This document shows positions 1,704-7,311 of a DNA stretch of 64,000 bases, in pieces. A program made the translations under genes and the position numbers. The stretch comes from an uncultured Paracoccaceae bacterium. Lineage in GTDB: Bacteria > Pseudomonadota > Alphaproteobacteria > Rhodobacterales > Rhodobacteraceae. Position 1 is the first letter of the stretch. Each line of letters opens with the position of its first letter. The stretch is from assembly GCA_947492825.1 (NCBI GenBank), contig CANLNT010000001.1, forward strand, positions 1,240,001 through 1,304,000. The letters run 5' to 3'. The notes under the pieces are model-generated. The model was not told the DNA's origin, made no database searches, and was given only the letters and a program-made list of their open reading frames with translations.

Positions 1704-2045
1704 TCACCTACCCACAATCTCCGCCTGCGCCTTCTTCGTCAGGCTCGCAAAGATGATGTCATAAGACACCGCGACCCGGTGGCGCAGCTCGTCTTCGTCG
1801 GCGCCCAACGGCACCGATATCCAAGACCGGTGCAGATACCGCGCCTTGCTGCCCGCACCGGCATCAATCAGCATCTGCGCGGTTTCCACGCTGTCGGTTT
1901 TGACCGACACCACATCCCCCAACGCGCCGATGATCGCAAACAGCTTGCCGCCGACTTTCCAGCTGTCATGGCCTTCGCCAAGGTTGTGATCCAGCGTCGC
2001 ACCGGGATGGGTGGCACAGATGGCGTTGACCGTTTTGCGTGACAT
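1704..2045 (-). CDS. MmcQ/YjbR-family protein
   Basis: A 113-residue protein with the compact CyaY-like fold of the MmcQ/YjbR family: an N-terminal VNAICATHPGATLDHN helix, a DSWKVGGKLFAIIG strand pair, a VSVKTDS strand and a RYLHRSWISVPL segment near the end. Family members are often annotated as DNA-binding but the biochemical role is not settled. ATG at 2045 is used because the conserved part starts immediately. The gene faces away from the DUF1697 gene at 2116, leaving a 70-bp shared upstream region. Confidence 0.85.
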   Translation of the reverse strand: MSRKTVNAICATHPGATLDHNLGEGHDSWKVGGKLFAIIGALGDVVSVKTDSVETAQMLIDAGAGSKARYLHRSWISVPLGADEDELRHRVAVSYDIIFASLTKKAQAEIVGR

Positions 2046-2115
2046 GGCTGGCCTCTGACTTGCAATTGTTCTATTTTTGTTCATGGGGGCGATGGTGTCA
2101 ATGAAAGGATCAGCG

Positions 2116-2628
2116 ATGCGGCATGTGGCGCTTTTGCGGGGGGTGAATGTCGGCGGCGGGAACAAGCTGCCCATGGCCGATTTGCGGGCGCAGGCGGCGG
2201 ATCTGGGCTGGCAGGACATCACGACCTATATCGCCTCGGGCAATCTGGTGTTTCGTGCAAGCGGGACGCCGGACGATCTGGCAACAGCCTTGCGCGCAAA
2301 GCTGGCGGTGGATGTCCCTGTGCTCGTGCTCACGGGCGATGATTTGCGCGCCGCGGTCCTTGGCTGTCCGTTTCCGCCGGACCCCGGCAACCTTGTACAC
2401 GGGTTTTTCTGCTTTGATCCGCCCGCGATGGACGAGGCGCGCGCCGCCAGCTTGCAAGCCCCGACAGAGGCGCTGGCGGTGATGGACCGCATCGTCTGGC
2501 TGCACGCGCCTGAAGGGATCGGGCGGTCGAAACTGGTGGAAAAGATGGACAAGGTCATCACCGGTACCACCTTCACCGCGCGCAACTTCAACACGATCCG
2601 CAAACTGGCGGCATTAGCCGCAGACTAG
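2116..2628 (+). CDS. DUF1697 family protein
   Basis: A 170-residue protein that opens with the hallmark MRHVALLRGVNVGGGNKLPM and continues with a TYIASGNLVF segment, both typical of the DUF1697 (COG3797) family. The C-terminus carries the conserved TTFTARNFNTIRKL segment. Function is unknown. Start at 2116 is supported by AAAGGA at 2104-2109; in-frame ATGs upstream (2077, 2101) precede the conserved start and lack a good ribosome site. The gene ends just before the cysteine-rich leader and cysS. Confidence 0.88.
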   Translation: MRHVALLRGVNVGGGNKLPMADLRAQAADLGWQDITTYIASGNLVFRASGTPDDLATALRAKLAVDVPVLVLTGDDLRAAVLGCPFPPDPGNLVHGFFCFDPPAMDEARAASLQAPTEALAVMDRIVWLHAPEGIGRSKLVEKMDKVITGTTFTARNFNTIRKLAALAAD

Positions 2629-2671
2629 ATCAATGCTGGACGCAACCGTCATTGCCTGCTATTCCGGCCCC

Positions 2672-2716
2672 ATGAAAAAGACCTGCATCATTATTTGCTG
2701 CATTATTCCCTGCTGA
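2672..2716 (+). CDS. Candidate cysteine leader peptide of cysS
   Basis: A 14-codon ORF from ATG 2672 reads MKKTCIIICCIIPC then TGA, so 4 of 14 residues are Cys, two of them adjacent, and 5 are Ile. An in-frame ATG at 2633 would extend it to 27 residues with a fifth Cys. It sits between the DUF1697 stop and the cysteinyl-tRNA synthetase gene, 81 nt before cysS. The last Cys codon and the stop lie inside the 5' arm of a terminator-like hairpin, so a ribosome paused at Cys codons would block hairpin formation. That arrangement fits attenuation by charged tRNA-Cys. The ribosome-binding site is weak, which is the main reservation. Confidence 0.5.
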   Translation: MKKTCIIICCIIPC

Positions 2717-2736
2717 TCTCCAGCGGGCTGCTTTTT
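2709..2736 (+). terminator. Putative attenuator hairpin before cysS
   Basis: CCTGCTG (2709-2715) pairs with CAGCGGG (2721-2727) over seven base pairs with one G-T wobble and a five-base loop, followed by CTG and a CTTTTTC tract (2731-2736). The hairpin overlaps the end of the cysteine-rich leader ORF and precedes cysS by about 60 nt. I read it as a rho-independent terminator used for attenuation. The stem is short and the T-run is offset by three bases, so strength is uncertain. Confidence 0.45.
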
Positions 2737-2797
2737 CACGTTTCACATTGATCCTGATTTCGCTAAGCCCGCCGGCAAAACCCGTGCGTGAGGCGCT

Positions 2798-4231
2798 ATG
2801 ACACCGATCCGTTTCCATAACACCAAGACCCGCCGCAAGGTGGATTTTGAACCTGTCATCCCCGGCAAAGTCAGCATGTATCTCTGCGGGCCGACGGTCT
2901 ATGACCGCGCGCATCTGGGCAATGCGCGCAATGTGCTGCTGTTTGACGTGCTGTTTCGGATGATGCGCCACGTCTATGGCGCTGGGAACGTGACGTATGT
3001 GCGCAACTTCACCGACGTCGATGACAAGATCAACGCGCGCGCTGCTGAAACGGGCCGTGCGATTGGTGACATCACGGCAGAGACCATCGGCTGGTATCAC
3101 GCGGATATGGACGCGCTGGGTGCGATGCGCCCCACGCATGAACCCCGCGCGACAAACTACATCCAAGAGATGATCGACATGTCCGCTGATCTGATCGCCA
3201 AGGGCCATGCTTATGAGGCGGAAGGCCATGTGCTGTTTTCGGTCGCCAGTGACCCCGACTATGGCAGCCTCTCGGGCCGCTCGGTTGACGACATGATCGC
3301 AGGCGCGCGGGTCGAAGTGGCGCCTTATAAACGCGACCCGATGGACTTTGTGTTGTGGAAACCTTCACCCGATGGGGTCCCCGGTTGGGACAGTCCTTGG
3401 GGCTACGGGCGACCCGGTTGGCACATCGAATGCTCTGCCATGTCCAAGGCGCTGTTGGGTGAAAGCTTCGACATTCACGGCGGCGGCAATGACCTGCAAT
3501 TCCCGCACCATGAAAACGAGATTGCCCAGTCCCGTTGCGCGCACCCGAATGGCGAATTTGCCCGCGTCTGGCTGCACAACGAGATGTTGCAGGTCGAAGG
3601 CAAGAAAATGTCCAAATCCTTGGGCAACTTCTTCACCGTGCGCGATCTGCTGGATCAGGGCGTGCCGGGAGAAGTCATTCGCATGGTCTATCTGACCACC
3701 CACTACGGCAAGCCTATGGACTGGACCGAAGCCAAGCGCACCGAGGCAGAAGCGACCCTGCGCAAGTGGTATGGCATCCTGCACGGCCATGGGTTTGGTC
3801 CGCAACTGATCGCGGCACTTCAGGCGGATGGCAAATGGCAGGCGGATGATGAATTCATCGGTGTGCTGGCCAATGACATGAACACCCCCGGTGCTATTGC
3901 CCGACTCCATGTGCTGTCCAAAGGGCGCACACCGCAGGCACTGGCCGGTTTCGCGCATGGGTTAGCGATGCTGGGGCTGGTCAACGACTGGTCCGCCATC
4001 CCGATGTTTGAGGGTGGCGAGGCAGGTCAAGACGTCACGCCCGCCGTTGCCGCGCGTGTCGATGCGCTCTTGACGACCCGTGCGCAGGCGCGCGCGGATA
4101 AGGATTGGGCAACCGCCGACGAGGTGCGTGATATCCTCAACGCTGCTGGTGTGCAGGTCACGGACGTGGGCGGGCAGGCCACCTGGTCCGCAGGCCCCGG
4201 TTTTGACGCTGCCAAACTGGGGGATTTGTAA
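2798..4231 (+). CDS. cysS: Cysteinyl-tRNA synthetase
   Basis: A 477-residue class Ia aminoacyl-tRNA synthetase that charges tRNA-Cys with cysteine in the cytosol. The HIGH-type signature is HLGN at residues 39-42, C30 in CGPTVYD is the first zinc ligand that selects cysteine, GWHIECSAM carries the next ligand region, [15 protein letters not shown] is the family's second zinc/active-site stretch, and KMSKS occupies 270-274. Length is slightly above the usual 460. ATG 2798 follows GTGAGG. The stop shares one base with the cimA start. A cysteine-rich leader and hairpin upstream suggest control by charged tRNA-Cys. Confidence 0.97.
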
Positions 4232-5850
4232 TGACCCGTGAACGCCTCTACCTTTTTGACACAACCCTGCGCGACGGACAGCAGACCCAAGGTGTGCAGT
4301 TTTCTACGACCGAAAAGCTCCGCATTGCCGAGGCGCTGGATGATCTGGGGGTCGACTACATCGAAGGCGGCTGGCCCGGGGCCAACCCCACCGATAGCGA
4401 GTTCTTTCAGGCCGGGATCAAAACCCGCGCCACCATGACCGCCTTTGGCATGACCAAGCGGACCGGGCGCTCTGCTGAAAATGACGATGTGCTGGCGGCG
4501 GTGATGAACGCCGACACCCCGGCGGTTTGTCTGGTCGGCAAAAGCCATCCGTTCCATGTGGAAACCGCGCTTGGCATCACGCTTGCGGAAAATACCGAAA
4601 ACCTAGCGGCCTCTTTCGCGCATCTGGTCGCCAATGGGCGCGAGGCGCTGTTTGACGCCGAACATTTCTTTGACGGCTACAAGGCCAACCGCGCTTACGC
4701 GCTCGAAGCGATCCACGCCGCTTATGACGCAGGCGCGCGCTGGATCGTGCTGTGTGACACCAATGGCGGAACCCTGCCAGAGGAGGTCTCTTCCATCGTG
4801 TCCGATGTCATCGACAGCGGTATCCCCGGCAGTCATCTGGGCATCCACACCCATAACGACACCGAAAACGCCGTGGCCAATACGCTGGCCGCCGTGCTGG
4901 CGGGCGCGCGACAGATTCAAGGCACGCTCAACGGTCTGGGCGAACGCTGTGGCAATGCCAACCTGACCAGCATCATCCCGACCTTGCTGCTGAAAGAGCC
5001 CTTCGCCAGCCGCTTTGAAACCGGCGTGACGCTGGACGCGCTCAAGGGTCTGCGCCGCGCCAGCCGCACGCTTGACGACATCCTCAACCGGGTGCCGACG
5101 AAACAGGCGCCCTATGTGGGGGCCAGCGCCTTTGCACATAAGGCGGGCCTGCACGCCAGTGCGATTGCCAAGGACCCCACCACCTACGAACACATCGAAC
5201 CGGGCATGGTCGGCAACAGTCGCATCGTGCCGATGTCGAACCAGGCGGGCCAGTCCAATCTGCGCCAGCGGCTGGCAGAGGCGGGGCTCGACGTCGCGCC
5301 TGATAACCCCGCGCTGCCGCGCATCCTGGAACGGATCAAGGAACAAGAGGCGCGCGGTTATTCCTACGATACAGCACAAGCCTCTTTTGAACTGCTGGCC
5401 CGCGCCGAACTTGGCACGCTGCCAACCTTCTTTGAGATCAAGCGCTACCGCGTCACCGTTGAGCGCCGCCGCAACAAGTACAACCAGATGGTCAGCATTT
5501 CAGAGGCTGTGGTCGTGACCAAGGTTGACGGCCATAAATTCCTCAACGTCAGCGAAAGCATCGGCCCGGATGGATCCGATCAGGGACCGGTCAACGCGCT
5601 GGCCCGCGCGCTTGCCAAGGATCTGGGTCGCTATCAGGGCATGATCGCGGATATGAAGCTCGTTGACTTCAAAGTGCGCATCACCGACGGCGGGACAGAG
5701 GCCGTGACCCGCGTCATCATCGATAGCGAAGACGGGCAGGGGCGGCGTTGGTCCACCGTGGGCGTCAGCGCCAATATCGTGGACGCTTCGTTTGACGCAT
5801 TGGTTGATGCAATCAACTGGAAACTCATTCGGGATGGGGCCGTTGGCTAA
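4231..5850 (+). CDS. cimA: Citramalate synthase (2-isopropylmalate synthase family)
   Basis: 539 residues. The N-terminal HMGL-like TIM barrel begins LYLFDTTLRDGQQTQGVQFS, with the DTTLRDG metal/acyl site, and continues with HTHNDTENAVANTLAAVLAG, the histidine metal ligands, and GLGERCGNAN. A C-terminal LeuA-type regulatory domain starts near residue 400. The DGQQTQG and GWPGANPTD variants match the CimA subgroup, which condenses pyruvate and acetyl-CoA to (R)-citramalate for isoleucine synthesis, rather than LeuA. It overlaps cysS by one base. Specificity is inferred from these motifs; a homocitrate synthase-like role is the alternative. Confidence 0.88.
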   Translation: MTRERLYLFDTTLRDGQQTQGVQFSTTEKLRIAEALDDLGVDYIEGGWPGANPTDSEFFQAGIKTRATMTAFGMTKRTGRSAENDDVLAAVMNADTPAVCLVGKSHPFHVETALGITLAENTENLAASFAHLVANGREALFDAEHFFDGYKANRAYALEAIHAAYDAGARWIVLCDTNGGTLPEEVSSIVSDVIDSGIPGSHLGIHTHNDTENAVANTLAAVLAGARQIQGTLNGLGERCGNANLTSIIPTLLLKEPFASRFETGVTLDALKGLRRASRTLDDILNRVPTKQAPYVGASAFAHKAGLHASAIAKDPTTYEHIEPGMVGNSRIVPMSNQAGQSNLRQRLAEAGLDVAPDNPALPRILERIKEQEARGYSYDTAQASFELLARAELGTLPTFFEIKRYRVTVERRRNKYNQMVSISEAVVVTKVDGHKFLNVSESIGPDGSDQGPVNALARALAKDLGRYQGMIADMKLVDFKVRITDGGTEAVTRVIIDSEDGQGRRWSTVGVSANIVDASFDALVDAINWKLIRDGAVG

Positions 5851-6559: not shown

Positions 6560-7311
6560 GCCTGACCGCCTGCGCCGCATTGGTCGAACGCGCCGACCCG
6601 GACCGCTTTCGCGCGGTCATGGCCGCCCCCGTGGCTGCGCGCCGCGTACTCTTTCCGCTTTTTGCCTTCAACGTCGAAGTCAGCCGCGCCCCCTGGGTCA
6701 CGCAAGAACCGATGATCGCGGAAATGCGCCTGCAATGGTGGCGCGATGCGCTGGACGAAATCGGCAGCGGTGCCACACCGCGCAAACACGAAATCGTCGA
6801 TGCCCTTGCCGACGTGCTGGACCCCGCCGGGGCCGCAAGCCTAGACGCGCTGGTCGCCGCGCGCCGATGGGACGTCTACAAAGACGCCTTTGAGGACGCA
6901 GCCCACCTGGATGAATATATCAACGCCACCTCAGGCGGGCTCTTGTGGACCGCCGCGCGCCTGCTGGGACCGGCAGAGGAACAACCCGTGCGCGATTTTG
7001 CCACCGGTGTGGGCATCGCCAACTTGCTTCGGGCTGTGCCGGAACTGGAAAGCCGCAGCCGCATTCCGCTGATCGACGGCACCCCGCAAGGGGTGCGGGA
7101 TCTGGCGCAAAAGGGCCTTGATCTCCTGTACCGCGCAGCGGAAGCCCGCGCCGCGATCTCGCCCGCCGCCGCACCTGCGCTGCTCTCGGGCTGGGCCGCA
7201 CGTCCGGTCCTGCAACAGGCCATCGCCAGCCCGCAGCGCGTTGTTGACGGGGCGCTGTCACCCGGTAACCTGCGCTTCACCTATGTAGCTTTGCGCGGAT
7301 GGATGCGATGA
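6556..7311 (+). CDS. Squalene/phytoene synthase-like protein (NDUFAF6 type)
   Basis: 251 residues of the all-alpha trans-prenyltransferase fold. RLQWWRDALDEI corresponds to the conserved helix around the first aspartate-rich motif and SGGLLWTAARLLG to the central SxG segment, but the paired DxxxD metal-binding motifs of true squalene or phytoene synthases are not present. That pattern matches the short bacterial relatives of human NDUFAF6, a complex I assembly factor, more than carotenoid enzymes, and no crt genes are nearby. The ATGA overlap with the methyltransferase places it in the same operon. Confidence 0.75.
   Translation: MSLTACAALVERADPDRFRAVMAAPVAARRVLFPLFAFNVEVSRAPWVTQEPMIAEMRLQWWRDALDEIGSGATPRKHEIVDALADVLDPAGAASLDALVAARRWDVYKDAFEDAAHLDEYINATSGGLLWTAARLLGPAEEQPVRDFATGVGIANLLRAVPELESRSRIPLIDGTPQGVRDLAQKGLDLLYRAAEARAAISPAAAPALLSGWAARPVLQQAIASPQRVVDGALSPGNLRFTYVALRGWMR

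Follow-up and report, generated by a model that had tools for sequence, protein, structure and literature searches.

The window, the whole stretch of 64,000 nucleotides analysed here, carries the cysteinyl-tRNA synthetase gene cysS with cimA directly on its 3' side. cimA encodes citramalate synthase, the first step of isoleucine synthesis, and the two genes overlap as TAATG at 4229-4233, where the cysS stop runs into the cimA ATG. The upstream neighbour is a DUF1697 ORF whose stop is at 2628, and a squalene/phytoene-synthase-family gene (PF00494; SQS_PSY) lies at 6562-7278, beyond cimA and a methyltransferase ORF. A short leader ORF, MKKTCIIICCIIPC, with tandem Cys at codons 9-10, precedes cysS. 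The features of this region are as follows.

2636..2642, + strand: -35 element of the leader promoter, C-TGGACG (consensus C-T(T/G)G(A/G)C), from ATG-anchored base counts over 129 leaders
2657..2665, + strand: extended -10 element, TGC-TATTCC, spacer 17, predicted +1 at 2672, from the same ATG-anchored counts over 129 leaders
2672..2716, + strand: leader ORF including its stop, 14 codons with 5 Ile and 4 Cys, predicted to be leaderless
2674..2680, + strand: 5' arm of the outer stem P1, GAAAAAG, from the last base of the ATG to codon 3, from covariation and the minimum-energy fold
2684..2702, + strand: P2, UGCA 2684-2687 with UGCA 2699-2702, a weak inner hairpin over the sensor codons, found in the minimum-energy fold only
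2709..2727, + strand: hairpin P3, 2709-2715 with 2721-2727, over the last codon and the stop, from sequence, terminator scan and fold
2728..2746, + strand: U-rich tail, the presumed end of the terminated leader RNA, overlapping the -35 of the second promoter, from sequence and conservation
2731..2737, + strand: 3' arm of P1, CTTTTTC, from covariation and the minimum-energy fold
2741..2769, + strand: second promoter-like block, TTTCAC-N17-TAAGCC, predicted +1 about 2776, from conservation of a TT(T/C)(C/T) box
2798..4231, + strand: cysS, cysteinyl-tRNA synthetase (TIGR00435, 435 bits, cut-off 340)
4231..5850, + strand: cimA, (R)-citramalate synthase of the isoleucine pathway (TIGR00977, 591 bits, cut-off 450)

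A first-pass annotation of this DNA had reported a 14-codon ORF at 2672-2716, with 4 Cys among 14 residues, immediately before cysS, followed by a hairpin and a T-run. The ORF is there as described, as is the hairpin, CCTGCTG at 2709-2715 with CAGCGGG at 2721-2727, which includes the final Cys codon together with the stop's first two bases, and the run CTTTTTC is present behind it at 2731-2737. With nested starts counted separately, the two strands of the window contain 388 stretches of 10-20 codons that run from an ATG to a stop, and we ranked MKKTCIIICCIIPC among them. It has the highest combined Ile and Cys fraction (0.64, next 0.50). By Cys content it is only third, below a 10-residue ORF and its longer form inside cysS, so Cys alone would not single it out.

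Conservation lifts MKKTCIIICCIIPC above this background. cysS was found in 289 of the 295 genomes of the family, and 160 loci were drawn from the upper, best-scoring part of the resulting list, which makes the sample lean to close relatives; it includes a few loci from other families (L020, L021 and L111) and apparently one duplicate (L019/L173). Taking as a leader a Cys/Ile-rich ATG ORF with its stop 60-140 nt 5' of cysS, we found a like-placed leader in 129 of the 160 loci, nearly all of them Rhodobacterales. All 129 stretches, from the ATG to 40 nt beyond the stop, differ from one another. The comparison with other Rhodobacterales that had been proposed as a check thus returned a Cys-rich ORF that persists upstream of cysS in distinct sequences, and on this comparative evidence the leader is not due to chance.

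A covariance model, R1, was built from 74 of the 129 leaders. It adds six of the 160 loci (L140, L159, L169, L178, L196 and L216) and finds a single strong copy in the source genome, at 72.3 bits with the next match at 17.5. Weak matches were obtained at L200 (21.5 bits, not counted as a leader) and L021 (17.1 bits). A Cys-rich ORF at L120 was dropped as a leader for want of an R1 match, and the R1 matches L237, L238 and L239 were rejected because the surrounding stretch retrieved held no cysS. No Rfam 15 family matched at the leader site, either at gathering scores over the whole window or at E up to 10 over 2500-2900, and a T-box, riboswitch or other described RNA was rejected on that ground. 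Two oddities turned up among the loci. In L227 and L231 (G175:C80) cysS appears as two overlapping matches, residues 1-199 and 191-474, like a frameshift or an assembly error. In L058, from an alphaproteobacterial MAG, a Cys-rich 27-codon ORF, MTHQSCSCKKCDCHGNCGKNCACGCCK, presumably metallothionein-like, lies ~50-140 nt before cysS and is unlike the leader.

The leaders are richer in isoleucine than in cysteine, which is new relative to the published Cys-only reading. Over 1597 residues in the 129 leaders, Ile makes up 30.9%, Cys 23.9% and Thr 12.7%. Counting back from the stop, the most conserved residue is the Ile of codon -3 (120 of 129), and the best Cys position is codon -5, with Cys in 98 of 129. 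The Cys-only attenuator of cysS that the first-pass annotation and Brewer (2021) describe would leave the Ile codons as unpaired filler or give them some other structural role. This explanation agrees with the conservation of the Cys codons, which in many cases stand side by side, and with a gene order that begins with cysS. A/U filler, however, should also use codons for Asn, Lys, Phe, Leu and Tyr. Of 512 codons that begin with two A/T bases in the last ten positions of the leaders, 483 encode Ile; the corresponding share in the cysS genes is 17%. The bias is therefore for the amino acid and not for A/U, and this codon choice rejects a plain A/U-rich spacer between the stems. The third base of the Ile codons is mostly free (ATT 265, ATC 215). 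The exception is codon -3, with ATT in 114 of 120, in contrast to the cysS genes, which favour ATC about 4 to 1. The ATT preference may reflect a further, base-level constraint; it gives the Cys-only explanation some support and counts against the dual Cys/Ile reading that we prefer below.

The sequence upstream of the leader points to a promoter placed close to the ATG. Across the 129 ATG-anchored upstream regions, taken without selection, T occupies -35 in 103, and -34 is G in 73 and T in 46 (119 together). Nearer the ATG, T is found at -12 in 70, A at -11 in 83 and C at -1 in 106. The best TGCTAT-like match starts at -15 in 62 of 129 and at -16 in 41 of 129 (103 together), so that +1 would fall on the first base of the leader ATG or on the base preceding it. 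These counts look like a conserved sigma-70-type promoter with a spacer of 17 and an extended -10 TGC, and the start predicted from its spacing suggests that the leader ORF is leaderless. The first-pass annotation had named a weak ribosome site as its main doubt. The point loses its force as a doubt, since the predicted +1 on or beside the leader ATG would explain why a ribosome site is missing.

The first codons of the leader also take part in an RNA stem. The arms of P1 vary in step between species, reading GAAAAAG/CTTTTTC in the window and GAAGAGC/GCTCTTT, GAACGGC/GCCGTTC and others elsewhere. In the 124 of 129 leaders that entered the pairing test, the other five having no GCGG anchor, P1 arms scored 13.02 with their own tails and 10.45 with partner-shuffled tails (sd 0.25; best of 1000 shuffles 11.37; 87 distinct 5' arms). 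Codons 5-8, used as a control, gave 6.98 against 7.24 shuffled. A second control, the sequence upstream of the ATG, gave 10.97 against 10.08 (sd 0.22); because it also pairs slightly above its shuffles, relatedness accounts for part of the P1 signal. In Hyphomicrobiales the own pairing of P1 was 17.24 against 13.59 (sd 0.58; 25 distinct arms), a value reached by 0 of 1000 shuffles. The compensatory base-pair pattern that had been suggested as a check was thus found, in a second order too, for P1, which pairs codons 1-4 with the U-rich tail.

Minimum-energy folds of the predicted transcripts contained P1 in 116 of 124 leaders, P3 in 98 and both in 92, with a mean z of -1.84; the set was reduced from 129 by dropping L120, L134 and L149 by hand and the remainder for lack of the anchor. 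The window sequence folded from its predicted start at 2672 gave a z of -2.73 (60 shuffles), and the whole of 2629-2800 gave -0.70. RNAalifold on the fixed MAFFT alignment returned no consensus stem, a miss that we think is owed to P1 sliding by a few bases between species. Covariation and folding suggest that the CCTGCTG hairpin makes up no more than half of the structure and that the outer stem made from the first codons belongs with it.

The evidence for termination is more mixed. A terminator scan performed at chance (2 sites in 2000-4400, 2.2 expected), and we counted the short and interrupted U-tract against the attenuator. An ordinary terminator of the upstream gene combined with a chance ORF would be in keeping with the scan and with the DUF1697 ORF stopping at 2628. 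The conservation of leader, promoter and covarying stem in two orders speaks so strongly against this combination that we give it almost no weight. The leader and its structure are real.

Part of the U-rich tail has a second candidate function. In the promoter-like block at 2741..2769, TGC precedes TAAGCC and a GC-rich stretch follows that -10. Among 128 leader loci, 82 show a TT(T/C)(C/T) box followed by TA(A/G) with a spacing of 17 (spacing 16: 49; spacing 22: 29), and a like block is present in 5 of 8 loci with neither a leader nor an adjacent cimA. A second promoter that bypasses the attenuator may supply basal cysS. Since the tail overlaps the -35 of this promoter, its conservation is not creditable to termination alone.

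We compared the presence of the leader with that of cimA, which we scored as linked when it lay on the same strand within 3.5 kb downstream of cysS. In the Rhodobacterales set the leader was present in 124 of 141 linked loci and 0 of 7 unlinked ones (Fisher 1.3e-6, kinship ignored). Under an 800-nt adjacency rule, with four same-genus loci left out and L225 and L226 added, the counts were 124 of 140 and 0 of 8 (Fisher 1.6e-7). Of 156 loci, 140 have cimA no more than 800 nt beyond cysS, and the overlap of the two genes seen in the window recurs in 18 of the 123 leader loci for which cimA was matched. The seven unlinked loci comprise L225, L120, L103 and L128, from genomes without a cimA match, L155, from an incomplete genome without a match, and L132 and L005, with cimA elsewhere. 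The absence of cimA was not used as evidence where the cysS contig ends early. In L225, L120, L103, L128 and L132 the leader is missing and cysS directly adjoins the PF00494 gene, which in the window lies beyond cimA, indicating that cimA was lost from an otherwise similar gene order. Two candidate counterexamples fell away: cimA does follow cysS in L270, and the sequence of L276 ends about 115 bases after cysS. No Ile leader was found before the stand-alone cimA of L218 and L219, where one was looked for.

Correction for kinship on a cysS protein tree reduced the Rhodobacterales set to 5 independent pairs, nearly always all in favour of the association (median p 0.0625, range 0.0625-0.125). 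Adding 22 loci of other orders, with labels set by hand and L020 and L021 counted as leader-bearing, gave 7 pairs, about 6 in favour and none against (median p 0.031, range 0.031-0.125). A variant of the pair test, with mixed distance rules and six linked leaderless loci left out, gave p 0.0625. The correction leaves few independent pairs, and we count this against our best reading. A linked cimA also does not require a leader, because 17 of the 141 linked Rhodobacterales-set loci have none by the criteria used, among them L117 with cimA ~1.8 kb downstream, and because no leader is visible in eight loci of other alphaproteobacteria in which cimA is linked (L023, L024, L027, L028, L032, L036, L040 and L050). 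Such loci favour the Cys-only explanation. Against it stands the finding that the leader is not retained for cysS alone once cimA is gone. With the leader absent where cimA is missing or elsewhere, though cysS remains, a cysS-only reading of these loci looks incomplete.

The same design extends to Hyphomicrobiales. In the family of the L049 genome (Devosia sp. Leaf420), R1 matches 44 of 61 genomes at E up to 0.1; the match in G689 (contig C72) is probably false, as the cysS of that genome has its own leader elsewhere. cimA is on the same contig as 40 of the 44 matches, in all 40 on the same strand and 1.4-5.4 kb downstream, a distance that leaves room for further genes in most loci of the Devosia family, as observed in L049. 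The same-strand ORFs between cysS and cimA in L049, at 3380-5345, are ones that we take to be DUF559-like, VOC-like and GFA-like. Among the 17 genomes without an R1 match, 14 show a leader by eye, two have loci cut by contig ends and one has no cysS. Leaders such as MKTVICIICRKIIR and MKTSFAICGICIIG are found in Rhizobium, Ensifer, Mesorhizobium, Bradyrhizobium, Xanthobacteraceae, Phyllobacterium and Stappia loci. The P1 arms match in those rhizobial-type loci that were tested, and in the rhizobial-type leader loci cysS and cimA are at most about 3.2 kb apart (on the same contig, judging by coordinates). Five loci have no leader; L030 and L042 are without a cimA match, and in L046, L056 and L067 cimA is on another contig or far away.

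We chose 44 Hyphomicrobiales leaders either with a filter on Ile+Cys content or by visual inspection. Ile accounts for 32.2% of their residues and Cys for 14.5%, and in several Hyphomicrobiales leaders a single Cys is accompanied by at least four Ile. Such leaders are hard to reconcile with a Cys-only attenuator, which on all the evidence we consider unlikely. The same composition would suit a mainly isoleucine attenuator for cimA in which the Cys codons are secondary and cysS has its own promoter. Loss of the leader together with cimA, while the downstream promoter block is found in leaderless loci, points the same way. In the Rhodobacterales set, however, Cys makes up 24% of leader residues and is tandem in many, and we hold a mainly isoleucine attenuator to be more doubtful still than a Cys-only one.

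The reading that we prefer, with somewhat better than even confidence, is a leaderless, dual Cys/Ile ribosome-mediated transcription attenuator of the cysS-cimA operon. Attenuation is the likely mechanism, given the conserved leader and stems, and from the codon content we infer that the amino acids sensed are Cys and Ile. The first-pass annotation had proposed an attenuation switch sensing charged tRNA-Cys for cysS. The conserved leader and stem support the switch itself; its restriction to Cys and to cysS looks incomplete, as Ile codons outnumber Cys codons and the leader is absent without cimA.

In the proposed mechanism, RNA polymerase would start at the A of the leader ATG, as the promoter predicts, and translation would be leaderless. 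Without a ribosome, or once a ribosome has finished, the leader RNA would adopt the branched fold of P1 and P3, and transcription would stop at the U-rich stretch. In the window the sensor codons are flanked by two 5' arms, that of P1 (codons 1-4) and that of P3, except for the last Cys codon, which is inside P3; the footprint of a ribosome is about 30 nt. A ribosome stalled for charged tRNA-Cys or tRNA-Ile would mask one or both of the 5' arms and so permit readthrough into cysS and cimA, and a ribosome that finishes would free both arms. The model would need only masking by the ribosome and no antiterminator; no conserved antiterminator was noticed on reading the sequences, rather than by a dedicated search. 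The second promoter, past the attenuator, would probably give basal cysS. We put at an even chance the fuller proposal that a lack of either Cys or Ile induces both genes, that the base stem of the terminator is made by the start of the ORF and opened by the start of translation, and that the design is common to Rhodobacterales and Hyphomicrobiales and is kept only while cimA is in the operon, not by cysS alone.

The peptide is short, hydrophobic and Cys-rich, and could instead be an arrest peptide or a working micropeptide, for example in thiol or metal sensing, with no role as a sensor of codon supply. In arrest peptides it is the order of residues, not mere composition, that is conserved. 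Cys and Ile exchange places at many core positions of the leaders, composition being kept more than order, and the stems enclose the codons, which makes a function of the peptide itself very improbable.

The proposed dual Cys/Ile attenuator resembles ribosome-mediated transcription attenuators in that cysS-cimA is preceded by a short leader ORF with many Ile and Cys codons. Where such attenuators have an intrinsic terminator, we find the covarying P1, P3 and a U-rich tail, with a scan at chance and an imperfect U-tract. The enteric leaders thrL, ilvL and ivbL are multivalent, a single leader carrying codons for two or three amino acids. The present leader is like them in combining codons for several amino acids; theirs share one pathway, whereas here one amino acid would go with a tRNA synthetase and the other with a biosynthetic gene unrelated to it. 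To our knowledge, leader-peptide attenuation reads amino acids of one pathway. A leader that reads both Cys and Ile, placed before an operon for a tRNA synthetase and citramalate synthase, would link the supplies of two amino acids that are unrelated to each other.

The closest published counterpart is the uORFC-8-2 motif, with 145 examples found only upstream of cysS in Rhodobacterales (Brewer 2021, RNA Biol, PMC8632094). Its description comprises an upstream ORF that starts with AUG and contains Cys codons in tandem, a pair of stems and a run of U, and ribosome-mediated attenuation was proposed for it; the tandem Cys are usually codons 14 and 15, the first stem holds the Cys codons, and a third stem is rare and without covariation (PMC8632094). 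The leader studied here shares the position directly upstream of cysS in Rhodobacterales (the window and 129 of 160 loci) and is likewise an AUG uORF with tandem Cys, at codons 9-10 where the published motif usually has them at 14 and 15. P1 and P3 fit the wording of two stems and a U run, a comparison made with the text description. Brewer (2021) calls the motif exclusive to Rhodobacterales, whereas the design reported here also occurs in the Devosia family and in rhizobial loci. The words 'isoleucine' and 'citramalate' have 0 occurrences in the main text of PMC8632094, and the promoter at the ATG, cimA and the Hyphomicrobiales members go unmentioned in its passages on the motif. Neither a leader with Cys and Ile codons nor an attenuator of cysS-cimA was the subject of any paper that our literature search returned, and none besides PMC8632094 named uORFC-8-2. 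Reading both Cys and Ile would complete the published Cys-only view of a motif spread over many alphaproteobacteria.

For the leaderless start, the nearest parallel is rnTrpL/peTrpL of Sinorhizobium meliloti, which arises from transcription attenuation and whose 14-codon trpL ORF starts at +1; Ribo-seq indicates that this leaderless ORF is translated (PMC7298713, PMC10117765). The present leader is also an alphaproteobacterial 14-codon ORF, its start at the A of the ATG being predicted from promoter spacing, and it differs in that rnTrpL senses Trp. Leaderless translation in attenuation can be put to a simple test with this leader, by comparative as well as laboratory work.
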